DNA of 33,146 bases from Desulfobacterales bacterium. Lineage in GTDB: Bacteria; Desulfobacterota; Desulfobacteria; Desulfobacterales; JAIPEE01. The position numbers were made by a program, and so were the translations under genes. How positions within the stretch are numbered: position 1 is the first letter of the stretch; each line of letters starts with the position of its first letter. The stretch covers positions 1-33,146 of the forward strand of contig JAIPEE010000040.1 in the NCBI GenBank assembly GCA_021737275.1. The letters run 5' to 3'. This document shows, in pieces, positions 328 through 11,148 of the stretch. The notes under the pieces are model-generated. The model was not told the DNA's origin and ran no database searches. It was given only the letters and a program-made list of their open reading frames with translations.

Positions 328-2133
328 ATGGGAAAAGAAAACAATAAAAACAGAGGCTGGCTGCTTCGAATCGTTGCTCAGGTACCCGAACTTGAAGCTA
401 TTTTAATGGCTGATCATCCGTTAAGTAAAAAACGCCGGCGTATCAGAAAATTTCTTTCAGATATACTGATTGCAACGTTTGACGATGATCCTAAAATTCC
501 ACCCATGGAGTGGGTGTTAACCCGTGACGCCGTCAGAGTATTTCGAAATATCATGGCATCCAGAAGTGAACGAAATGCGGGGTTTAGCCTGCTGAAATAT
601 ATAAACGACCTGTTACACAAAAAAGATCTTAACGGGATTCCTAAACCGGAACCCGGTTTTTATGCCGAAATCGATCACCTGATACGCGGTGTTGTCGGTA
701 TAACAGGCGTTTATAATGAAAAACAGCCTACCTTTTCCAAGCACGAGGGCAGAAAAGCGGCAAGATACAGATCAGCAGATCTTTCACGAATGGCCAGAAA
801 GACTGATCATTATATAAATCGGTATACATCCGGACTTGATCAGGATGCTATTCGGAGACGGAATAAAAACAAAACAAGAATATTAAAGTATTTTGGCGCC
901 ACTGACCTTGATTGGGAAAAATGGAAATGGCATACAAAAAACATTATTAAGGATGCAGATACGCTTGCCGGTCTTGTTAATCTCAATGATGATGAGTACA
1001 AGGCGGTTAAACTTGCAAATAAAAACAAAGTGCCTTTCGGCATAACACCATACTACCTTTCACTTATAGATTATCAGACGAACACCCGGAGAAGTGCGGC
1101 TTTACGCGCACAAGTTATTCCGACACTAAAATCTGTTGAGCTGCTTGTCGCTAATAAACAATGCGGGGAGTGCTCGATGGATTTTATGCTTGAAAGAGAC
1201 ACCTCCCCCATAGAGGGCATTACACGGCGTTATCCCAAAATTGTTATTATCAAACCGATAATGACATGCCCTCAGATTTGTTCATACTGCCAGCGAAACT
1301 GGCAGATAGAAGATGTGTATTCATCTACAGCCTTAATGGCAAACCAGCGTCTTGATAACGCAATAAAATGGATTAAGGACACACCTGAAATAAGAGAAAT
1401 ACTGGTCACCGGCGGAGATCCGCTTCTTCTTTCGGACAAAATACTGGAAAACCTCTTATACAAATTATCTAAAATAAAGCATATAACGCGTATCAGAATC
1501 GGCTCAAGGATGCTGGTAACACTTCCGCAGCGTGTAACTGAAGCGCTTGCCGAAATAATTTCCCGGTTTCATGTTCCGGGAAAAAGAGAAGTTGTGGTTG
1601 TCTCACACTTTGAACATGCTTATGAGATTACCCCCCAGGCGATGGAAGCCGTACAAAAAATCCGCCGTCAGGGAATAGCCGTTTATAATCAGCTCGTTTA
1701 CACCTTTTATAATTCAAGAAAATTTGAAGCGGCTGCCCTCAGGGACAAGCTTCGCCTTATCGGTGTAACTCCTTATTATACATTTAATACCAAGGGCAAG
1801 GAAGAAACTGATAATTTCAGAGTTCCTATTCCAAGACTTTTGCAGGAGCAGAAAGAAGAGGCTCGTCTTTTTCCCGGCACGGTTAGAACGGATGAGATTG
1901 TCTTTAATGTACCTCGTCTGGGCAAAAACTATCTCAGAGCGACACAGCATCATGATGTAATTTCAATTTTACCAGACGGCCGAAGGGTTTATGAATTTCA
2001 TCCGTGGGAAGAGAAACTGTCTCTTGTTGATACCTATATGTATACGGATGTATCCGTCTATGACTACCTCAAAAGACTTAAAGACTCAGGTGAAAAGATT
2101 TCGGACTATAGAACCATCTGGTATTATTATTAA
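328..2133 (+). CDS. KamA-family radical SAM aminomutase, predicted glutamate 2,3-aminomutase
   Basis: This 601-residue cytosolic radical SAM, PLP-dependent enzyme probably converts L-glutamate to beta-glutamate. The [4Fe-4S] motif CPQICSYC has C314, C318 and C321, followed by VTGGDP (GGDP at 362-365). The PLP lysine is K533 in PRLGKNYL. From memory, Clostridium lysine 2,3-aminomutase binds the lysine side chain with D293 and D330, while C. difficile glutamate 2,3-aminomutase has Lys and Asn there. By alignment of YYxxxxx and xVxxxxP, this protein has K489 and N527, the glutamate-type pair. The aminomutase core begins near residue 197 (WEKWKWHTKN). The preceding ~195 residues, rich in basic and helical stretches, are an extension not found in classical lysine aminomutase. 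It is the first gene of a tight + strand cluster (61 nt to asnO). Family is near certain; glutamate specificity is a strong inference. Confidence 0.85.
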   Translation: MGKENNKNRGWLLRIVAQVPELEAILMADHPLSKKRRRIRKFLSDILIATFDDDPKIPPMEWVLTRDAVRVFRNIMASRSERNAGFSLLKYINDLLHKKDLNGIPKPEPGFYAEIDHLIRGVVGITGVYNEKQPTFSKHEGRKAARYRSADLSRMARKTDHYINRYTSGLDQDAIRRRNKNKTRILKYFGATDLDWEKWKWHTKNIIKDADTLAGLVNLNDDEYKAVKLANKNKVPFGITPYYLSLIDYQTNTRRSAALRAQVIPTLKSVELLVANKQCGECSMDFMLERDTSPIEGITRRYPKIVIIKPIMTCPQICSYCQRNWQIEDVYSSTALMANQRLDNAIKWIKDTPEIREILVTGGDPLLLSDKILENLLYKLSKIKHITRIRIGSRMLVTLPQRVTEALAEIISRFHVPGKREVVVVSHFEHAYEITPQAMEAVQKIRRQGIAVYNQLVYTFYNSRKFEAAALRDKLRLIGVTPYYTFNTKGKEETDNFRVPIPRLLQEQKEEARLFPGTVRTDEIVFNVPRLGKNYLRATQHHDVISILPDGRRVYEFHPWEEKLSLVDTYMYTDVSVYDYLKRLKDSGEKISDYRTIWYYY

Positions 2134-2194
2134 CCCTGACCCGGATCATAATCATTCTTGATAAGAATATACTTGAGGGAAAGGAGATAAAAAA

Positions 2195-3967
2195 ATGTGT
2201 GGAATATGCGGAACACTCAGTTTGAACGTTAACAAAACCCATGTATCAGGTGTTGAACGCATGATGGAAAAATTATCGTCAAGAGGGCCTGATGCAATGG
2301 GTCTGTTCCGTCAGGATAATATTGCCCTGGGTCATCGTCGTCTCAAAATTATTGACCTTAGTGAAAGAGCCCAGCAACCGATGGTCGATAACAATCTTGG
2401 TTTAACAATTGTTTATAATGGTGCCATTTACAATTATAAAAAACTTCGTTCACAGCTTAGAGATAAAGGATATCAGTTTTTTTCAACCGGCGATACGGAA
2501 GTTATCCTGAAAGCGTATCATGCCTGGGGAAAAGATTGCCTAAACCATTTGAACGGGATGTTTGCTTTTGCGATATGGCATCGCGACAGCAAGGAACTGT
2601 TTTTAGCAAGAGACAGGCTTGGTATCAAACCTGTTTATTATGCTGTAAACAGTGACAGCTTCAGTTTTGCATCCTCCCTGCCGGCACTGCTGACACAAAA
2701 AGACATAGATACTGACATTGATCCGTCTGCTTTAAATTATTATATGAATTTTCATTCTGTTGTTCCTGCACCCTTTACAATCCTGAAAGGTATAAACAAA
2801 CTGCCACCCGCTACAAGCCTGCTGATTAAATCAGACGGCACAATCAGCGTTGAAAAATACTGGGATCTTGAATTTAAAAGCAAGAAAGAAGAATTAAAAT
2901 ACAGTTTCGAAGACTGGAAGGCGTTATTACTCAACAAGCTGAGAACGGCTGTTAAGCGAAGACTCACGGCAGATGTTCCGGTTGGTGTGCTTTTATCCGG
3001 AGGGCTTGATTCCAGCCTTGTCGTCGGCCTTCTCGCCGAAACCGGTCAAAAAAATATAAACACATTTTCAATTGGATTTGAAAGCATAAATGGTGAGGAA
3101 GGAGATGAGTTTGAATATTCCAACTGTATTGCCGATCATTTTGATACTGTCCATCATCGTATCAGCGCAGGGTCACAATTAGTTCTCTCAAATCTTGATG
3201 ATTGTGTTCGTGCTATGGCTGAACCTATGGTCAGCCATGACTGTATCGGATTTTATCTATTAAGCAGAGATGTTGCAAAGTTTGTAAAGGTTGTCCAGAG
3301 CGGTCAGGGCGCCGATGAGGTTTTTGGCGGGTATCACTGGTATCCGCCATTAATGGACAGCAGGAACATTATTAAGGATTATCGCAACATTTTTTTTGAT
3401 CGCACGCCATTAGAATACACCCGGACTGTCCATCCTCGGTTTATCCATGATGATGACAGTTATAATTTTATTCATAGCCATTTTTCAAAAATAGAGAGTG
3501 CAAATGCTGTGGATAAGGCCTTGCACGTTGATACAACCGTCATGCTTATTGATGATCCGGTAAAACGGGTGGACAATATGACAATGGCATTCGGCCTTGA
3601 AGCCCGCGTCCCCTTTCTTGACCATGAGCTGGTTGAGTTTGCAGCACGTATACCTGCTGAATTCAAAATTAACAATGGTGGTAAATTCATACTCAAAGAA
3701 GCAGCCAGAGATATTATTCCTTCTAAAGCCATCGATAGACCTAAAGGGTATTTTCCTGTACCTGCTCTGAAATATTTCAGGGGCGAATATCTGGATTTGG
3801 TACATGATATTTTACACTCTGAAAAAGCGGTATCGCGTGGCCTTTTCAACCAAACCTATGTTGATCAATTATTTAATAACCCTGATGATCATATCACACC
3901 GCTTCGTTGTTCAAAATTATGGCAACTGGCACTACTCGAGTATTGGTTATCTGTTCATCTGGAATAA
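2195..3967 (+). CDS. asnO: Asparagine synthase-type amidotransferase, NAGGN amide-forming (AsnO-like)
   Basis: This 590-residue class II glutamine amidotransferase starts MCGICGT, so Cys2 is the nucleophile after Met removal. The N-terminal glutaminase domain covers about residues 1-200. The C-terminal ATP-pyrophosphatase synthetase domain carries the PP-loop SGGLDS at 268-273. Length and layout match the asparagine-synthase partner of NAGGN synthetase, which amidates the C-terminus of N-acetylglutaminylglutamine in Sinorhizobium and Pseudomonas. The adjacent ngg gene 66 nt downstream is the main reason to prefer this role over ordinary AsnB. A good ribosome site (AAAGGAGAT) precedes the ATG. 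It could still be a general asparagine synthetase, but the pairing makes that less likely. Confidence 0.85.
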   Translation: MCGICGTLSLNVNKTHVSGVERMMEKLSSRGPDAMGLFRQDNIALGHRRLKIIDLSERAQQPMVDNNLGLTIVYNGAIYNYKKLRSQLRDKGYQFFSTGDTEVILKAYHAWGKDCLNHLNGMFAFAIWHRDSKELFLARDRLGIKPVYYAVNSDSFSFASSLPALLTQKDIDTDIDPSALNYYMNFHSVVPAPFTILKGINKLPPATSLLIKSDGTISVEKYWDLEFKSKKEELKYSFEDWKALLLNKLRTAVKRRLTADVPVGVLLSGGLDSSLVVGLLAETGQKNINTFSIGFESINGEEGDEFEYSNCIADHFDTVHHRISAGSQLVLSNLDDCVRAMAEPMVSHDCIGFYLLSRDVAKFVKVVQSGQGADEVFGGYHWYPPLMDSRNIIKDYRNIFFDRTPLEYTRTVHPRFIHDDDSYNFIHSHFSKIESANAVDKALHVDTTVMLIDDPVKRVDNMTMAFGLEARVPFLDHELVEFAARIPAEFKINNGGKFILKEAARDIIPSKAIDRPKGYFPVPALKYFRGEYLDLVHDILHSEKAVSRGLFNQTYVDQLFNNPDDHITPLRCSKLWQLALLEYWLSVHLE

Positions 3968-4033
3968 ATATAAAATTATAACGGTGGAAACATTAATATT
4001 TAAGCTCAAACTAATATCCAGGGGATAAACGTT

Positions 4034-5809
4034 ATGGATAAAAATTATAATATCAGGCAGCGGTTTGAAAGGGTATCTTTGCCGTCATTACGTAATTGGG
4101 GTGAACGATACAACTCGCCCGAAACCAGTAAAATGTTACCGGATGTAACGGTCAATATGGGGTGGGGGAAAATTATTTTTGCGCATACTTTCAGCTCCAG
4201 CAAGTCCTTGCTGGAAGAAATCATGAATGAAAAAAAGGGAACTCGTGATATTACATTTTACCTTAGAGATCCGCATGTCATATTATCCTATGCACCGGAC
4301 AAACTTTTTCTGGATCCCTCTCATACATATCGTTTGTGGTCACATGATTACAGGCCGGACACATCAACGCCGCAGGCTTTCAATATCCGGCGAATCTCAT
4401 CACATCAGGATGCAGTTGAAATAAACCGCATTTTCGCGTCACATAATATGGTCACCGGTGATATTCCTTTTATGCTCGATAAACATGCAACCAAAGTAAG
4501 AACATATCTGGTTGCAGAAACAAAATCCGATAAAAAAATCGTAGGGACGGTTACCGGTCTTGATCATGCAGAAGTTTTTAATGACCCTGAAAACGGTGCC
4601 AGTTTATGGAACCTGGCAGTAGATTCACAAACCAATATTCCCGGTATCGGAGAGGGACTGGTCCGGCACCTGGCCGGACACTACTTCGCAAGAGGCCGGA
4701 ACTATATTGATCTTTCAGTAATGCACGACAATCATGAGGCGATACAGCTTTATGAAAAAATCGGTTTTCAGCGAGTTCCTGTATTTTGCATCAAAAGGAA
4801 AAATCCTATTAATCAATCACTATTTGTTGCCCGCCAGCCGGAAGAGAACCTGAACCCCTATGCCAAAATCATCATTAATGAAGTAAGGAAACGCGGTATA
4901 GAGTGTGAGGTGATTGATGAAGAGTACGGTTATTTTAAGCTCAAACAGGGAGCGGTTTCAATTACCTGCCGTGAATCTTTGAGTGAGTTGACATCCGCCA
5001 TTGCGCTGAGCCGTTGTGACGATAAAAGGCTGACCACCCGTATTCTAAAAAATGCAGGATTGAATGTACCAAGACAATACAAGGCGGGTGACAAACATGA
5101 CGTTATGAAAATATTAAAAGAGCTCAAAAGAGTCGTTGTAAAACCGGCTCGAGGGGAACAGGGAAATGGCATCAGTGTCGATATCCGCTCCTGTGATGAA
5201 CTGGAAAAAGCAATAGAGACAGCAAAAAGATATTGTGATGATATCATTATTGAGGAATTAATTGAAGGTGAGGATCTTAGAATTGTTGTAATAAACTATA
5301 AAGTCGTAGCCGGTGCCATTCGCAAACCGCCGGTAGTTACCGGGACCGGTCATCACACGCTTCTGGAACTGGTGGAAAAATACAATCGCCGCAGAAAGGC
5401 TTCAACCGGAGGCGAAAGCAGCGTCCCATTTGACAGTGAGACGGATCGCTGCATCAATTCAGACGGCTACGGGTGGGATTCAGTCCCCGCAGCCGGTGAG
5501 TCGATTTGCCTGCGAAAAACAGCAAACCTGCATACCGGCGGTACAATCCATGATGTTACAGAAAAACTTCATCCAAAGCTGATCGAGGCAGCAGAATCTG
5601 CAGCTAGAGCGATCGAAATACCTGTTACCGGGCTGGACTTTCTTATAAAAGATATTTCTTTGTCCGATTATCATATCATTGAAGCCAATGAACGGCCAGG
5701 CCTGGCGAATCATGAACCCCAACCCACAGCAGAACGTTTTGTTGATCTTTTATTCCCACAATCTGTTTCTGAAACCGATACAGGGATCAACCGTTCGTTA
5801 ACCCCATAA
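4034..5809 (+). CDS. ngg: N-acetylglutaminylglutamine synthetase (GNAT + ATP-grasp fusion)
   Basis: This 591-residue bifunctional protein has an N-terminal region of about 110 residues, a GNAT acetyltransferase domain (about 115-260, with NIPGIGEGLVRHLAG and the C-terminal NHEAIQLYEKIGF), and an ATP-grasp ligase domain (about 285-590). The ATP-grasp part shows VVKPARGEQGNG with K370 and the metal/ATP-binding EANERPG at 550-556. The family acetylates glutamine and joins a second glutamine to make N-acetylglutaminylglutamine, later amidated by the asparagine-synthase partner. Compatible solutes of this type accumulate under osmotic stress. The GNAT/ATP-grasp fusion next to an AsnB-like gene is diagnostic. 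Whether one of the two glutamine units is a beta-amino acid here is unknown. A GGGGAT ribosome site precedes the start. Confidence 0.88.
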   Translation: MDKNYNIRQRFERVSLPSLRNWGERYNSPETSKMLPDVTVNMGWGKIIFAHTFSSSKSLLEEIMNEKKGTRDITFYLRDPHVILSYAPDKLFLDPSHTYRLWSHDYRPDTSTPQAFNIRRISSHQDAVEINRIFASHNMVTGDIPFMLDKHATKVRTYLVAETKSDKKIVGTVTGLDHAEVFNDPENGASLWNLAVDSQTNIPGIGEGLVRHLAGHYFARGRNYIDLSVMHDNHEAIQLYEKIGFQRVPVFCIKRKNPINQSLFVARQPEENLNPYAKIIINEVRKRGIECEVIDEEYGYFKLKQGAVSITCRESLSELTSAIALSRCDDKRLTTRILKNAGLNVPRQYKAGDKHDVMKILKELKRVVVKPARGEQGNGISVDIRSCDELEKAIETAKRYCDDIIIEELIEGEDLRIVVINYKVVAGAIRKPPVVTGTGHHTLLELVEKYNRRRKASTGGESSVPFDSETDRCINSDGYGWDSVPAAGESICLRKTANLHTGGTIHDVTEKLHPKLIEAAESAARAIEIPVTGLDFLIKDISLSDYHIIEANERPGLANHEPQPTAERFVDLLFPQSVSETDTGINRSLTP

Positions 5810-5844
5810 TTGTAAATAATGTAAAAGGAGTTGAAATCAGCAAC

Positions 5845-7194
5845 ATGAATCAAGTAAACAGTGATACGGATGACATAAACAAGCTGCTTCAAGACGTGAA
5901 TAATACCAAATTATTTTTTACGGATTTGAACGGCAAACTCATGAATCTGACCATAAATAAAGAAAAGCTGGATGAAATCAGAGAAAACGGTGTGGGATTT
6001 GACGGCAGCTCTATTGCCGGATACGCTACCGTTGAAAAAAGCGATCTGCTGCTTATGCCGGACATGTCAACTTATAAAAACATCTCCTTCAGAAGCGACC
6101 CCGTCGGTTTTTTTATTGCGAATGTTTATAATGAACAAGGCGCACCGGCATCAACAGACCCCCGTAATTTATTGCAAAAAATTATTACAGACGCAGAGGA
6201 AGAGTTTGGATTCAAGTTTGTTCTGGGGCCGGAATATGAATTCTTCCTGCTGAATGATGAAGATACATTTTCTTTATCATCCGGTAAAAAATTCAACCGT
6301 GAGGCACATTCCGATAAAGCCGGTTATTTTCATTCAACACCCCATGATAAGGGTGAATTTATTCGAAACCGGGTTGTTGAAATACTTGGAGACTGCGGTG
6401 TCCGATATGAAAAATCTCACCATGAAGTTACACCGTCCCAGCATGAAATCAATATTGAATGTTCAGATGCCCTTAGCGCAGCCGACCGTACTATTCTTTT
6501 CACTTACATAACTCAGAAAGTAGCTGAGAAAAACGGCTACTATGCCACGTTTATGCCGGCACCGTTTGAAGGATTCAACAGAAGCGCCTTTCATATTCAT
6601 CTCTCTGTTCAGGACCAAAGCGGCAAAAATATTTTTTATGATAAAAATTCTGATCAGGATTTAAGCAAAATTGCAAGACAGTTTATCGGCGGCCTTTTAA
6701 AATATGCAAGAGAAACATCAGTTATTATGAACTCGACAGTTAACTCTTACAAGACCTTTGTTATCGACAGGGAAGTGCCGATTGTAAGGGGCTGGGGCTT
6801 CAGAAACAGGACCTCTATGGTGAGGGTGCCTTACTCCCGCTCTCCGCAAAGCACCCGTATAGAACTGCGCAGCCCTGATCCGGCCGGTAATGTTTATTTA
6901 CAAATGGCTGTACTTATTTCCATGGGACTTCAGGGCATTCGTGAAGAATTGTCCTGCGGTTCTCCGGATAAAGGAAGCACATACGGCCGAAGCAAGAAGG
7001 TCAAGGTCTGGGATGAAGATTTTCTTCCCCGATGCCTTTATGAAGCTCTGGTTGAAGCTGAAAAAAGTGATTTTCTTAAATCAGTTCTTGGAGAACACCT
7101 TTACACAAACTTTATGGATCTGAAAATTAATGAATGGGAAGAAGATAGAACTCATATCACTTCAAGAGAACATCGCCGATATTTAAACATATAA
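5845..7194 (+). CDS. Glutamine synthetase-like enzyme with altered glutamate pocket
   Basis: This 449-residue type I glutamine synthetase has the GFDGSSI loop near the N-terminus, GPEYEFFLL carrying metal-binding glutamates, HIHLS, NSYK, E310, and RIELRSPDP with E340 and R342. Two positions that contact glutamate in Salmonella GlnA differ: the NGSGMH loop (G265 there) reads NRSAFH at 245-250, so Gly is R246, and NSYKRL (R321, which binds the alpha-carboxylate) reads NSYKTF, so Arg is T304. Metal, ATP and catalytic residues look intact, so an active ligase is likely, perhaps on a glutamate relative such as beta-glutamate. Gap to ngg is 35 nt, with an AAAGGAG ribosome site. It could be an ordinary GlnA with drifted residues, or a gamma-glutamyl ligase of another kind. 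Confidence 0.85.
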   Translation: MNQVNSDTDDINKLLQDVNNTKLFFTDLNGKLMNLTINKEKLDEIRENGVGFDGSSIAGYATVEKSDLLLMPDMSTYKNISFRSDPVGFFIANVYNEQGAPASTDPRNLLQKIITDAEEEFGFKFVLGPEYEFFLLNDEDTFSLSSGKKFNREAHSDKAGYFHSTPHDKGEFIRNRVVEILGDCGVRYEKSHHEVTPSQHEINIECSDALSAADRTILFTYITQKVAEKNGYYATFMPAPFEGFNRSAFHIHLSVQDQSGKNIFYDKNSDQDLSKIARQFIGGLLKYARETSVIMNSTVNSYKTFVIDREVPIVRGWGFRNRTSMVRVPYSRSPQSTRIELRSPDPAGNVYLQMAVLISMGLQGIREELSCGSPDKGSTYGRSKKVKVWDEDFLPRCLYEALVEAEKSDFLKSVLGEHLYTNFMDLKINEWEEDRTHITSREHRRYLNI

Positions 7195-7211
7195 CCAATT
7201 ACTTCTAAGTG

Positions 7212-7230
7212 CCCCCGGCTTAGCCGGGGG
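7212..7230 (+). terminator. GC-rich hairpin between glutamine synthetase-like gene and next gene
   Basis: CCCCCGGCTTAGCCGGGGG forms an 8-9 bp perfect stem with a tiny loop, 18 nt after the preceding stop codon. No T-run follows, so it is not a standard intrinsic terminator. It may protect the upstream mRNA 3' end, attenuate expression of the last two genes, or be a dispersed hairpin repeat. Confidence 0.55.
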
Positions 7231-7298
7231 ATATACTGCAGAACTAATTTCATCTGTTTTCTTATAGCGGCTAACAGGAAAATCTCTCAGGAGGGAAT

Positions 7299-7742
7299 AT
7301 GTTATTTAATGAAAAAGATTATAATACAACAGCATTAATGCTTAAGGAAAACTTATCATTACAGGACGCACTTATTATTTTTGTCGTTTATTTTGTAATG
7401 ATCAATCCTGAGAATGAAAAAAATGACTATAAATCTATTCTTGAGCTGGCACAATCGCACCCTCTCTTTGAAGAAACAACCAAAAAAACAAAAAAACGAA
7501 TAGATAAAATCGTCAACAACATATCTTCAGAAAATGTAGCAGAGATGATTATACTTGCACAAAAATCCATAACCCCGGAACTTTCGGAAACCGCTTTTGA
7601 ATGGGCAACAAGACTCGCACTTCAAAAGGGAAAAATATCTGAAGATAGTTTATCAATGCTCAGCTATCTCAAGGTGAAGTTAAAGATCAGTGATCATTCT
7701 GCTGATAAAAGCATTAAAAAGATCAGTGATAAAATCAATTAA
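7299..7742 (+). CDS. Small helical protein, possibly TerB-like
   Basis: This 147-residue protein belongs to no family I can name with certainty. The sequence is almost all amphipathic helix, lysine- and glutamate-rich, with one hydrophobic stretch near residues 22-34 (LQDALIIFVVYFVM) that is too short and acid-flanked to be a clear membrane anchor. The pattern of several helices with regularly spaced Leu/Ile and an acidic DxxSxxLL-like segment near the C-terminus is reminiscent of TerB/DjlA-type tellurite-resistance domains. A strong AGGAGG ribosome site precedes the ATG. It sits between the glutamine-synthetase-like gene and the second aminomutase (17 nt gap), so a role with one of them is possible. 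Confidence 0.7.
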   Translation: MLFNEKDYNTTALMLKENLSLQDALIIFVVYFVMINPENEKNDYKSILELAQSHPLFEETTKKTKKRIDKIVNNISSENVAEMIILAQKSITPELSETAFEWATRLALQKGKISEDSLSMLSYLKVKLKISDHSADKSIKKISDKIN

Positions 7743-7759
7743 ACTTAAAACAAGGAAAA

Positions 7760-8836
7760 ATGATGCCGGAAGAGTGGGTTGAACAGATAATAAATCAGGT
7801 AAATACACTTGAAAAGCTTGAAAATTATATTGATGTCTCCGATGGTGAAAGGGAAGCGATCAAGACCCTGAAAACCAGGTGGGGCGCATCACCCTATTTT
7901 GTATCGCTGATGGACAGGCATGATCCGGATTGTCCGATCCGAAAGCAGGTGATTCCATCTATGAAAGAACAGTGTAATGAATACGGGATGGAAAACTACC
8001 TGGTCTGGAAAGAGAATAGAGAAGTCGATAGTGATCGCCCGGACAGCATCGCTCGTCAGTATCATGATCGTATCGCTTTTAACGTTGTCCAGACTTGTGG
8101 TATTTATTGCCGGCATTGTTTCCGAAAGGAGCTGGTTGTTGATCAGGATCTGCAGTTGCGCTTTAACACTGATGAAGGTCTGGCCTGGGTTAATGAACAC
8201 CCGGAGATTCGCGACGTCCTGATAACCGGCGGCGATCCCTTACTTCTGTCTGATAACAAACTGGAATATCTGATTGCGAGGCTTCGCGAAATAGCACATG
8301 TTGAAGTAATCCGAATCGGTACGAGACTACCTGTCGTGTTGCCTCATCGTATTACGGAAGGGTTGAAAAAAGCCATCGGTGGCTGCCACAAAGTTCCCGT
8401 TTGGATCAATACGCAGTGCAACCACCCGAAAGAGATTACCGAAAAAACAGCAAAAGCCGTATATGATTTGTTGAGCTGCGGTATCAATGTAGGAAATCAG
8501 GCAGTATTGCTGAAAGGAATCAATGATGATGTGAACACATTCAGAAAACTGCATCAGGAGTTACTGCGGATACGTATCCGGCCCTACTATGTTTTTTATT
8601 GTGAACCGGCTCCGGGAATAGATCATTTCCGTACTCCCGTGGAAAAAGGTGCTGAATTGATTCGGGACGCCATACGCGGACATACTACCGGTATGGCTCA
8701 GCCTATTTACGTACTGGCAACCAACATCGGTAAAATCCCGTTAATGCCTGACTATTATATTGTCGACAAAAACGAAAAGGAATTCACACTGCGAAATTAT
8801 AAAGGTGAAATAACCCGGACACCAAATATTCCGTAA
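7760..8836 (+). CDS. KamA-family radical SAM aminomutase, second paralogue, substrate unknown
   Basis: This 358-residue protein has a compact KamA core: CGIYCRHC gives C113, C117 and C120 for the [4Fe-4S] cluster, then ITGGDP, HFRTPV, and the PLP lysine K325 in IGKIPLMPDY. It is closer to lysine 2,3-aminomutase than the first paralogue (RPYY, HFRTPV, LRNYKG near the C-terminus). The two lysine-binding aspartates (D293 and D330 of the Clostridium enzyme) correspond to E282 and, depending on a 2-residue gap, A320 or a neighbour. It therefore matches neither the lysine (Asp/Asp) nor the glutamate (Lys/Asn) signature. ATGs at 7760 and 7763 are both possible; the second has better spacing to AAGGA (7752-7756). 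It could be a lysine, glutamate or other 2,3-aminomutase, or an EpmB-like enzyme. Confidence 0.85.
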   Translation: MMPEEWVEQIINQVNTLEKLENYIDVSDGEREAIKTLKTRWGASPYFVSLMDRHDPDCPIRKQVIPSMKEQCNEYGMENYLVWKENREVDSDRPDSIARQYHDRIAFNVVQTCGIYCRHCFRKELVVDQDLQLRFNTDEGLAWVNEHPEIRDVLITGGDPLLLSDNKLEYLIARLREIAHVEVIRIGTRLPVVLPHRITEGLKKAIGGCHKVPVWINTQCNHPKEITEKTAKAVYDLLSCGINVGNQAVLLKGINDDVNTFRKLHQELLRIRIRPYYVFYCEPAPGIDHFRTPVEKGAELIRDAIRGHTTGMAQPIYVLATNIGKIPLMPDYYIVDKNEKEFTLRNYKGEITRTPNIP

Positions 8837-8972: not shown

Positions 8973-10043
8973 TTACCACTGCTCCAGCCGATAAATATCG
9001 TCAGCCGATCGGCGCAACTCTTCACCCAGTGTCCCGCCAATCTCATAGAGGAGATAAAGTGCCAGGCCTGCTTTGGTATTGTGATCCATCGCCATAATCT
9101 CTTTTCTGTCAATTTCGAGAATTTCGGTGTCTTGTGTTACAATTGCGGAGGCCGCACGCGGGCCGGGCGTTAAAAAAGCAATCTCACCGAAATAGGTTCC
9201 CGGCCCATACTTGGCAAGTCGTTTGTAACCCCTCGCACTGGTATAAAGCCGAATCTCGATCTCGCCTTTTAGTATCAGGAACAGGGATTGGCCGAAATCT
9301 CCGCTTTTAAACAAAGTACTTCCTTTTATAAGTGATACGGGTTTTGCCATCCCCTGGATAAGCGTAATAATGTTTTCCGGCATACCATTACAAAAATTAT
9401 TCTCTTCCAACGGTGTATAATGGTCGGGTTGCGCTACACTGCACCCTGCTTTTTCAAGCACTATATTTTCCGCATACTCAAATGCCGTATCTGTATCATG
9501 AAATATCTTTGCCCGTAGATCACTTTTTTTATCGATCTCCTGGAAGGCTATTGATACTTTTTCTCCGAACCCAAGCTCCTCGCGCAGATGGCAAAAGATG
9601 AGTGTCGCTCCTTTTGCTGCAGCACGTGAATCGATTTGCAGCAGCAATATCATACCGGTAAGATCAATGTATTTTACACGCCTGAAGTGCAGGATGATAA
9701 TACTTCCGGAAAAGGTATCTTGTTCAATCTCGGTTAAAAGCCGATCTGCCGTTGCAAAGAAGAGATTTCCCCGCAATTCGATCATGATAATCTTGTCGGC
9801 CTCAACATCCAGAATCTTACGTTCAGCGTCTGTTCGGGCGCAGAACGAATGATGATGCTCTGCTGTGACCCTGCGGTGGATGATAGGCGTTTTGATCTGG
9901 GTCTGGATAAAGATTATAATCGCTATTGTTACGCCCACAACAACCGCCATAACCAGGTTTGAGAATACAATAGTGGCGATAACGCTTAATGCGATCGCTC
10001 CGTCGAACCGGGTATTTTTATTCTTCAGCCAAAAAAAAAACAT
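8973..10043 (-). pseudogene. C-terminal part of SulP transporter: last membrane helices, STAS and cyclic-nucleotide-binding domains (frame-shifted)
   Basis: This 356-residue frame is the C-terminal continuation of the SulP protein encoded just upstream on the same strand. It starts with membrane helices (IALSVIATIVF, VVVGVTIAIIIFI), then a STAS domain (about residues 85-200, with MIELRGNLFFAT and VKYIDLTGMILL), then a cyclic-nucleotide-binding domain (about 230-340). The latter keeps the phosphate-binding cassette FGEIAFLTPGPRAAS with its Glu and Arg, so cNMP binding is plausible. The apparent ATG lies in the T-rich homopolymer and has no ribosome site, so it is not a real start. Removing one base from the run at 10031-10040 joins the two frames. 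It is either a true frameshift or a sequencing error; the domains themselves look undamaged. Confidence 0.85.
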
Positions 10044-11148
10044 TTAAGTTGATCATGCCGATACCAACAAATGTGATCACACCGGCCAGCACACTGATCG
10101 GAAGGTAATTACCTGCTGTACCGGCAAAAAGCATCAGCACGATCATCAGCAATCCTGACACCAACGGACTCCATCGGCCACCGCCGGATTGAATTGTAAC
10201 CAGCGTGGAGCCTTTCGTGCCGCCGCCGCCAAGACCGCCCAAAAGTCCTACCAGCATTTGTCCGATCCCCTGGGCGACCATCTCTTTTTTGGCATTATGA
10301 CGTGACCCCGTCTGAGCATCGGCCACCACCGAGGTAATCAGGCAATCTGTTGTCGCTAGGATAGTCAGGGCCATTGATGAGGTGATGACAATATTCCATG
10401 GTACTGCTTTCAGTGCCTTAAGAGAAATACCCAATTGCAGTGAGGCCAGAGAAGGAATTGATCCGACAACCCAGCTTTGTTCCGCTTTGCCTGTAAAATA
10501 AATCAGAATCTGAAACAGAAAAATTCCAAAAATCAATCCGGCCGGCGCCCCCGGAATTTTTTGAAATTTTTTCGGCACAACTGCTATGGTAAAGATTGTA
10601 AGAAGCGCCGTTATGACTGGAATAACCGTATACAGATCAAACGGCTGAGACATATCCATATTCTTTGACAGTAGCAATACCTGCGATTTTATCATCAGCA
10701 AACCGATACCGGTGACCAGGCCTGCCACTACAGGGTTAGGAATATATTTGACCAGCTGACCGCCGCCGATAGCACCGAACGTCAGTTGAAAAATACCGGT
10801 CAGTATCAAGATCGCACTCAGTGTGGTCATCATCTCTGCAGAACCGGCGCCATTTGCACTCATTTTTGCAAATACACCGACCAGCAGCATGGTAACCGGG
10901 CCATTCGGCGCACTGATCATTCCTTTAGTTCCGCCAGAAAAGCCTGAGACGATAGAAAGGATAGCGGCGCCTAATAATCCCGCCATAGCGCCGTTTGAAG
11001 CAGCCATCCCCATACCGGTAAAAAGAACAACTCCTAATCCCATAGATTGAGGCAATGCTACTGCCGAACCGGCAAAACCACCTAAAATATCTGAAATATG
11101 AAAATTTTTTTTAAAAATGTTTGCTACTGTCATCTGTTTTGTCATCAC
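10018..11148 (-). CDS. SulP-family anion transporter, N-terminal membrane part
   Basis: This 376-residue frame is a polytopic inner-membrane protein of the SulP/SLC26 family, which moves sulfate, bicarbonate or similar anions. Family features include ALPQSMGLGVV near the first helix, SAPNGPVTMLLVGV, and PNPVVAGLVTGIGLLMIKSQ, with roughly ten hydrophobic segments. It ends prematurely at LNVFFLAEE because of a run of ten A (10031-10040 on the + strand); with nine it would read on into STAS and cyclic-nucleotide domains, giving a protein near 725 residues. GTG at 11148 is followed directly by ATG at 11145, and the ATG is the likelier start. It follows the SMP-30-like gene by 65 nt, possibly one operon. 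Confidence 0.85.
   Translation of the reverse strand: MMTKQMTVANIFKKNFHISDILGGFAGSAVALPQSMGLGVVLFTGMGMAASNGAMAGLLGAAILSIVSGFSGGTKGMISAPNGPVTMLLVGVFAKMSANGAGSAEMMTTLSAILILTGIFQLTFGAIGGGQLVKYIPNPVVAGLVTGIGLLMIKSQVLLLSKNMDMSQPFDLYTVIPVITALLTIFTIAVVPKKFQKIPGAPAGLIFGIFLFQILIYFTGKAEQSWVVGSIPSLASLQLGISLKALKAVPWNIVITSSMALTILATTDCLITSVVADAQTGSRHNAKKEMVAQGIGQMLVGLLGGLGGGGTKGSTLVTIQSGGGRWSPLVSGLLMIVLMLFAGTAGNYLPISVLAGVITFVGIGMINLNVFFLAEE

Follow-up and report, generated by a model that had tools for sequence, protein, structure and literature searches.

The asnO and ngg genes are reportedly those for synthesis of N-acetylglutaminylglutamine amide (NAGGN), an assignment credited to Sagot and colleagues in 2010, and, as solutes, beta-glutamate and beta-glutamine are known chiefly from methanogens. 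In Methanohalophilus portucalensis the glutamine synthetase (GS) is highly active on beta-glutamate and beta-glutamine is an osmolyte, according to passages of a 2005 review, which also state that the enzymes of methanogen beta-glutamate synthesis were not all identified (PMC1224877). Glutamate 2,3-aminomutase (eam) genes lie under Na+ riboswitches, and ablA carries tandem Na+/cyclic di-AMP (c-di-AMP) riboswitches, as given in excerpts of PMC9337991. The locus analyzed here lies on contig JAIPEE010000040.1 of a Desulfobacterales bacterium (assembly GCA_021737275.1). The window, i.e., the whole stretch of DNA that was analyzed, is this entire contig (C18; 33,146 bases) of a 4.26 Mb genome in 104 contigs. 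Six of its genes combine asnO and ngg with two KamA-family genes, a GS-like gene and a gene for a small helical protein. With moderate confidence, they are read as two osmolyte pathways in one co-directional run, not as one hybrid: ordinary NAGGN synthesis and a beta-glutamate/beta-glutamine module. The six genes are as follows.

328-2133, + strand: KamA1, 601 aa, KamA-family radical S-adenosylmethionine (SAM) protein, candidate glutamate 2,3-aminomutase
2195-3967, + strand: AsnO, N-acetylglutaminylglutamine amidotransferase, 590 aa, TIGR03104
4034-5809, + strand: Ngg, N-acetylglutaminylglutamine synthetase with GNAT and ATP-grasp parts, 591 aa, TIGR03103
5845-7194, + strand: GS-like ligase, candidate beta-glutamine synthetase, 449 aa
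7299-7742, + strand: Orf5, all-helical protein of probable TerB-type fold, possibly regulatory, 147 aa
7760-8836, + strand: KamA2, predicted KamA-family aminomutase, 358 aa

An earlier reading made from the sequence alone (hereafter the sequence-only reading) had described six + strand genes at 328-8836 with gaps of 17-104 nt. The open reading frame (ORF) list of the window bears this out, with intergenic gaps in gene order of 61, 66, 35, 104 and 17 nt. No terminator-like site was found in the five gaps, and all 8 sites found lay inside genes (8.7 expected in shuffles). Because the window is a whole contig, the six-gene unit begins 327 nt from the contig end; downstream of KamA2 it is followed by an opposite-strand ORF ending at 8973.

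The GS-like protein has the GS fold (Pfam PF03951, beta-grasp, and PF00120, catalytic) and scored 385 bits on the GlnA model TIGR00653 (NCBIfam), short of the cut-off of 429. Residues were numbered as in the enteric enzyme by alignment to PDB 5ldf (index +2 for 1f1h). At the positions of Gly265 and Arg321, which we take to hold, respectively, the amino group and the carboxylate of the glutamate substrate, the window protein has R246 (window 6580-6582) and T304 (6754-6756), and a new R309 stands at position 326 (6769-6771), directly before E310 at the Glu327 position. The same rebuilding was found in all 27 GS proteins of the window type: Arg321 was lost in 27/27 (Ala in 26, Thr in the window), position 265 was Arg in 27/27, and position 326 was Arg in 15 and Lys in 12. 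Ordinary GlnA controls, a non-random draw of 30 high-scoring TIGR00653 hits, had Gly265, Arg321 and Phe or Tyr at 326 without exception (30/30) and were 29.5-34.3% identical to the window GS (n = 30). In motif terms, NR replaces NG(S/T)G, NSYKA (in the window, NSYKT) replaces NSYKR, and Arg or Lys replaces the Phe or Tyr ahead of the catalytic-flap Glu. Asn264 and Glu327 were kept in 57/57 proteins (27 window-type GS and 30 GlnA), and the motifs with metal, ATP and ammonium residues were preserved in the window type. The pocket has thus lost the arginine taken to bind the alpha-carboxylate and gained basic residues at two nearby positions, an arrangement that fits a ligase substrate other than alpha-glutamate. 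Because the catalytic motifs are intact, the amino-acid end is rebuilt and a 2,3-aminomutase is linked, a beta-amino acid substrate would best explain this GS.

The linkage was surveyed in 194 genomes of the order, host included; none of the 30 relatives of the host listed was of its own family. The window type of GS occurred in 27/194 genomes (E ≤ 1e-100; all ≤ 8.3e-154), the 26 others being 53-67% identical. Adjacent to it stood a KamA2 ortholog (68-75% identical) in 15 of these 26 genomes and a KamA1-type gene in 3, and all 18 adjacent pairs were on the same strand, their aligned spans being 6-392 nt apart. That the aminomutase and synthetase genes are conserved together in relatives, as the sequence-only reading implied, is therefore upheld for 18 of the 26 other GS genomes. 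In counts uncorrected for common descent, GS and KamA2 (KamA2 set at E ≤ 1e-110, with a few members partial or under the usual identity) occurred together in 20 genomes, with 3.9 expected. Among 360 genomes of the phylum, GS was found in 5 (E ≤ 1e-130), of which three do not belong to the order. One of these has GS with an adjoining KamA2 (G366; 80%), one has GS alone (G423), and in the third (G302) GS, KamA1 and KamA2 are consecutive on one 5.7-kb contig, with KamA1 again carrying its diagnostic Lys (see below). Two of the three GS proteins outside the order have all three pocket changes; the third (L223), compared at 321 and 326, has the change at both. No match to GS was found in plasmids at E 1e-100.

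The NAGGN genes follow a different distribution. AsnO scored 942.6 bits on TIGR03104 (cut-off 570.1) and the adjoining Ngg 816.2 bits on TIGR03103 (cut-off 569), both passing (NCBIfam). Ngg was above cut-off in 14/194 genomes of the order, host included, and in 3/395 genomes of the phylum, one of them outside the order (L198, a locus left uncounted owing to poor gene calling); Ngg matches also occurred in 84 plasmid records. The 14 other Ngg loci came from 13 other genomes, several on short contigs (4.3-7.6 kb). AsnO adjoins Ngg in 13 of them, once as a fragment, the fourteenth stretch ending at a contig edge, and the order asnO-ngg is the same in the window as in the other loci of the order. 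Homologs of KamA1, GS, Orf5 and KamA2 were found in 0/14 of these loci within the stretches fetched, so that a recurrence of KamA beside Ngg/AsnO across genomes, which the sequence-only reading would have counted as support, was not seen. GS and Ngg occurred together in 2 genomes (1.9 expected), KamA1 and Ngg in 5 (2.6 expected), and KamA2 was not above chance with Ngg. Judged by gene neighborhoods, KamA1, GS and KamA2 are a recurring module, separate from the NAGGN genes. Since they associate without NAGGN genes, the new feature of the window is the joining of this module to asnO-ngg, a junction seen in one genome only.

AsnO and Ngg were also inspected for a change of substrate. In a leave-one-out test, deviations were counted at positions invariant across all other rows (13 rows for AsnO, 15 for Ngg). 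The window AsnO had 6 deviations (others 1-9) and ranked third of 13; the window Ngg had 5 (others 0-7) and ranked fourth of 15. The Ngg deviations (T219A, A284V, I418V, A457S and V538I) are all mild, whereas half of those in AsnO, namely D310N, G434E and G572C, are non-conservative. The two proteins look ordinary, with no clear sign of a substrate change. No M42-type peptidase is present among the six genes. The only TIGR03106 match in the host genome (523 bits) lies on another contig (C29:3889-4914), and 10/14 other Ngg loci have a related gene of ~377 aa that resembles an M42 peptidase (by eye, not scanned against TIGR03106).

KamA1 passed the cut-off of the general family model TIGR00238 (316 bits; cut-off 199; NCBIfam). 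The only PDB sequence match for the aminomutase was lysine 2,3-aminomutase (LAM; 2a5h), against which residues were assigned. The CxxxCxxC, Arg134 and pyridoxal 5'-phosphate (PLP) lysine positions are preserved, with the cluster cysteines starting at C314 (window 1267) and the PLP-lysine position at K533 (1924-1926). At the positions of Asp293 and Asp330 of LAM, which we take to bind the lysine side chain, KamA1 has K489 (1792-1794) and N527 (1906-1908). Among 38 family rows (members of 560-680 aa only; one species possibly counted twice), Lys stood at LAM-293 in 38/38 and Asn at LAM-330 in 37/37 with a letter, as did the cluster cysteines (38/38) and the PLP-lysine (37/37 with a letter). The TIGR04368 (glutamate 2,3-aminomutase) profile was probed by single-residue changes in the LAM segment, because there was no true glutamate 2,3-aminomutase (EAM) sequence to compare: its cut-off was exceeded by 0/194 genomes of the order. 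K293 raised the TIGR04368 score by 2.7 bits and lowered the LAM profile score by 3.5; N330 raised the former by 2.9 bits and lowered the latter by 2.8. KamA1 thus carries the residue pair preferred by the glutamate 2,3-aminomutase profile. The Asp pair of LAM is absent from both KamA1 (Lys/Asn) and KamA2 (Glu/Ala) and was present in six LAM-like rows of the same alignment, four of ten EAM-model loci (L112, L113, L115 and L121) having been dropped by a motif and length filter.

Ahead of its catalytic part, KamA1 has an N-terminal domain of ~190 aa that is all-helical in a confident model (pLDDT 90) and had no PDB match at E ≤ 0.001 (Foldseek). Among 20 named genomes with a relative of it, 15 are of 'deltaproteobacterial' sulfate-reducer types (Desulfobulbaceae, Desulfobacteraceae or others), which suggests a host of this kind; no match was found in plasmids at E 1e-60. 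A paralog in the host (C30:73509-75305, - strand), 78% identical and with the same Lys/Asn residues, has no other window gene near it; the KamA1 gene probably doubled first, and one of the two copies then came to lie with the NAGGN genes. In an assembly of a Methanomassiliicoccales archaeon (L018, 9872-11797), a KamA1 relative is read as a pair of neighboring ORFs (29% and 56% identical to the two parts).

KamA2 likewise passed TIGR00238 (278 bits; cut-off 199), and the CxxxCxxC and PLP-lysine position (K325; 8732-8734) are present. It scored 357, 346 and 345 bits on the arginine, glutamate and lysine 2,3-aminomutase models, respectively, reaching no cut-off (NCBIfam). E282 (8603-8605) stands at LAM D293 and A320 (8717-8719) at D330. 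The Glu/Ala pair occurred in 14/14 KamA2 rows and, by motif, in three more (L137, L223 and L224); the table of residues was drawn up without the fragmentary KamA2 of L133, and the KamA2 of L129 (G061) has one stop and an alignment starting at residue 44. This pair is a clean fit to none of the three aminomutase profiles, and candidate substrates of KamA2 are glutamine, glutamate or another amino acid. At a guess, a pocket whose Glu exceeds the LAM Asp by one methylene and whose second Asp is lost would favor an uncharged, shorter substrate side chain, for instance that of glutamine, in line with the option of a glutamine aminomutase. A KamA2 ortholog without GS (L189, 5313-8827) lies directly behind a gene whose product has 4Fe-4S and FlpD domains and perhaps supplies electrons for the radical SAM chemistry. 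In L192, a gene of similar length stands beside KamA2 (not scanned). In G015:C48 (L191, 6755-11758), a second KamA2 is found close to a different GS-like gene (28% identical to the window GS) and an RpiR-type regulator. By eye, that GS-like gene keeps the Arg321 position and a further KamA there has Met at LAM D293; L191 is another association of an aminomutase with a GS-like gene.

Taken together, these data are read as follows. KamA1 would use radical SAM and PLP chemistry to turn L-glutamate into beta-glutamate, and the GS-like ligase would amidate the latter to beta-glutamine, consuming ATP and ammonia. KamA2 might provide a second entry to the pool, either via beta-glutamate or by converting glutamine to beta-glutamine directly. 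Alongside, AsnO and Ngg would make ordinary NAGGN, a synthesis that uses three glutamines and acetyl-CoA (PMC8070244). The module products are likely beta-glutamate and then beta-glutamine. The idea of a beta-glutamate- or beta-glutamine-based solute, put forward in the sequence-only reading, is in this respect supported by the residues of KamA1 and GS and by the adjacency of GS and aminomutase genes. A more far-reaching version, offered only tentatively, is a bacterial beta-glutamine route with two new enzyme activities: the GS subfamily would be a true beta-glutamine synthetase in which the arginine for the substrate carboxylate has moved, and the KamA2 family a glutamine 2,3-aminomutase, both in use among anaerobic sediment bacteria and, in the window, combined in one gene run with NAGGN synthesis.

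Several observations weigh against the reading of a beta-glutamate/beta-glutamine module. KamA1 scored 244.8 bits on TIGR04368, far below the cut-off of 650. By its residues (Glu/Ala, not Lys/Asn), KamA2 looks unlike a glutamate aminomutase, and despite these residues the usual neighbor of GS is KamA2 (15 genomes), not KamA1 (3). GS and KamA1 (full-length type and one 400-aa partial; the shorter partials of G148 and G082 excluded) occurred together in 5 genomes with 5.0 expected, i.e., at chance level, and none of the 15 GS-KamA2 genomes is in the KamA1 set. In 8/26 GS genomes (G146, G184, G168, G118, G038, G114, G011 and G079) there is no adjoining aminomutase, five of these having KamA2 elsewhere, and GS is absent from 8/28 KamA2 genomes. 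Other window genes are absent near KamA1 in most KamA1 loci, and AsnO, Ngg or GS was found near it in 0/20 named loci within the stretches covered. Riboswitches of the Na+-I and c-di-AMP classes were sought in two sets, the window with four loci and twelve GS-KamA loci, and neither class was found; the former set gave an FMN (flavin mononucleotide) riboswitch alone, distant from the GS-KamA genes (L052), and the latter a tRNA alone. Nor is any salt-response element known in the window. Finally, early nuclear magnetic resonance work excluded a glutamate aminomutase as the source of methanogen beta-glutamate, as related in part of PMC1224877.

The best-surviving alternative, possible though doubtful, is that GS is an osmolyte-dedicated, feedback-insensitive alpha-glutamine synthetase supplying both Ngg/AsnO and a KamA2 that converts glutamine to beta-glutamine (glutamine 2,3-aminomutase). 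The loss of Arg321 would here lessen product inhibition at a cost in glutamate affinity. A salt-induced second GS (glnA2) is described for Halobacillus halophilus in portions of PMC2412884, and three glutamines are consumed per NAGGN according to a section of PMC8070244; the change of Asp to Glu and the Ala at 330 in KamA2 would suit a neutral, shorter side chain such as that of glutamine. This explanation leaves unaccounted for the pairing of GS with the Lys/Asn-type KamA1 in 3 genomes and in G302, as well as the new basic residue at 265 in 27/27 proteins, and the chance-level co-occurrence of GS with Ngg counts against it. Beta-glutamine is the expected new solute both under this alternative and under the favored reading of a beta-glutamate/beta-glutamine module.

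Less probable still, and on balance improbable, is that lysine, arginine or ornithine is the substrate of the aminomutases, with GS ligating or amidating the resulting beta-amino acid, in which case the product would be a non-glutamate compound or the module would be catabolic. KamA2 scores slightly highest on the arginine 2,3-aminomutase profile (357 bits), which tolerates A330 (+0.9), and the surroundings of the second KamA2 of G015 include a GS-like gene of another type, an additional KamA and an RpiR-type regulator. Set against this, E293 costs 2.4 bits on the arginine profile and KamA1 lacks both Asp residues of the LAM lysine site. Beta-lysine and beta-arginine, moreover, are without the second carboxylate used in the usual GS phosphorylation. 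A NAGGN variant with beta-glutamine in place of one glutamine residue, the hybrid suggested by the sequence-only reading, is very unlikely: all genes do stand in one co-directional run, and the deviation ranks of AsnO and Ngg with the three non-conservative AsnO changes might be taken as hints, but the deviations are within family range and mild throughout the peptide-forming Ngg, GS and KamA2 are not above chance with Ngg, and the linkage is confined to the host genome, with 0/14 other Ngg loci.

Orf5 matched no NCBIfam family, and Pfam gave a sub-threshold DED match alone. The predicted model is all-helical (pLDDT 84). It aligned to 2ou3_A with Z 12.5 (root-mean-square deviation 2.9, 118 residues aligned), in a range where helical models (below about Z 13) may share arrangement only, and to 2h5n_A with Z 10.8, the next row being at 5.2 (VIA-align). 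Since the best Foldseek E value was 0.34 (2h5n), a TerB-type fold is probable, not certain. Relatives of Orf5 were found in 6/194 genomes (any match), host included, and their rarity argues that Orf5 is no fixed part of the module; no match was found in phages at E 1e-5. A paralog in the host (33%; C29:8943-9329) adjoins a GGDEF gene and is near the M42 gene, and its other neighbor is a 730-aa protein resembling sucrose-phosphate synthase (by eye, not scanned). Orf5 is perhaps an accessory protein with a regulatory role. The paralog lies within a second osmolyte-like region of the host (C29:1-19000; L183), with the M42-type NAGGN peptidase on the - strand and, on the + strand, a gene that by eye resembles a sugar kinase as well as the sucrose-phosphate synthase-like gene, the paralog and the GGDEF gene. 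In the window, beyond the six genes, a SulP-type transporter at 8973-11148 (- strand) seemingly falls into two ORFs that overlap, with the membrane part at 10018-11148 and the STAS and cyclic-nucleotide-binding domains at 8973-10043. This would reflect either a frameshift or sequencing error or a transporter made of two proteins.

The GS-aminomutase gene pair, which recurs in bacteria and shows a pocket change that is diagnostic, would serve as a genetic marker for beta-glutamate and beta-glutamine and would supply enzymes for expression and assay. Beta-aminoglutaric acid has been reported from anoxic marine sediments, and the carriers of the GS-aminomutase pair would be candidate producers of it. 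The joining of the two gene sets suggests that NAGGN and beta-amino-acid solutes may be deployed together in the host. In the open-licence literature no paper combining 'NAGGN' and 'aminomutase' was found, and among the matches listed no title or abstract opening concerned a bacterial aminomutase-GS locus for beta-glutamine; the portions of PMC3017947 and PMC9128505 covered do not name an aminomutase-GS route to beta-glutamine.

Compared with described asnO-ngg loci for NAGGN, the window has the same gene order and passes both cut-offs; unlike the trio with the M42-type peptidase, it lacks that gene (on C29 in the host) and adds KamA1, GS, Orf5 and KamA2. As in Methanohalophilus, a GS relative that amidates beta-glutamate is proposed; the archaeon uses its own glutamine synthetase, whereas in the bacteria described here the GS belongs to a subfamily of its own and is paired with aminomutases. 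KamA1 shares with glutamate 2,3-aminomutase (eam, TIGR04368) the two profile-preferred side-chain residues and differs from it in falling below the cut-off, in the extra ~190-aa helical N-terminal domain and in a different C-terminal end. No separate acetyltransferase gene is present among the six window genes (AblB was not sought elsewhere in the genome). The second enzyme of the AblA/AblB pathway to N-epsilon-acetyl-beta-lysine is an acetyltransferase, whereas that of the window would be a GS-like ligase and the lysine-binding Asp pair is absent; the likeness is that both osmolyte pathways would open with a KamA-type aminomutase.

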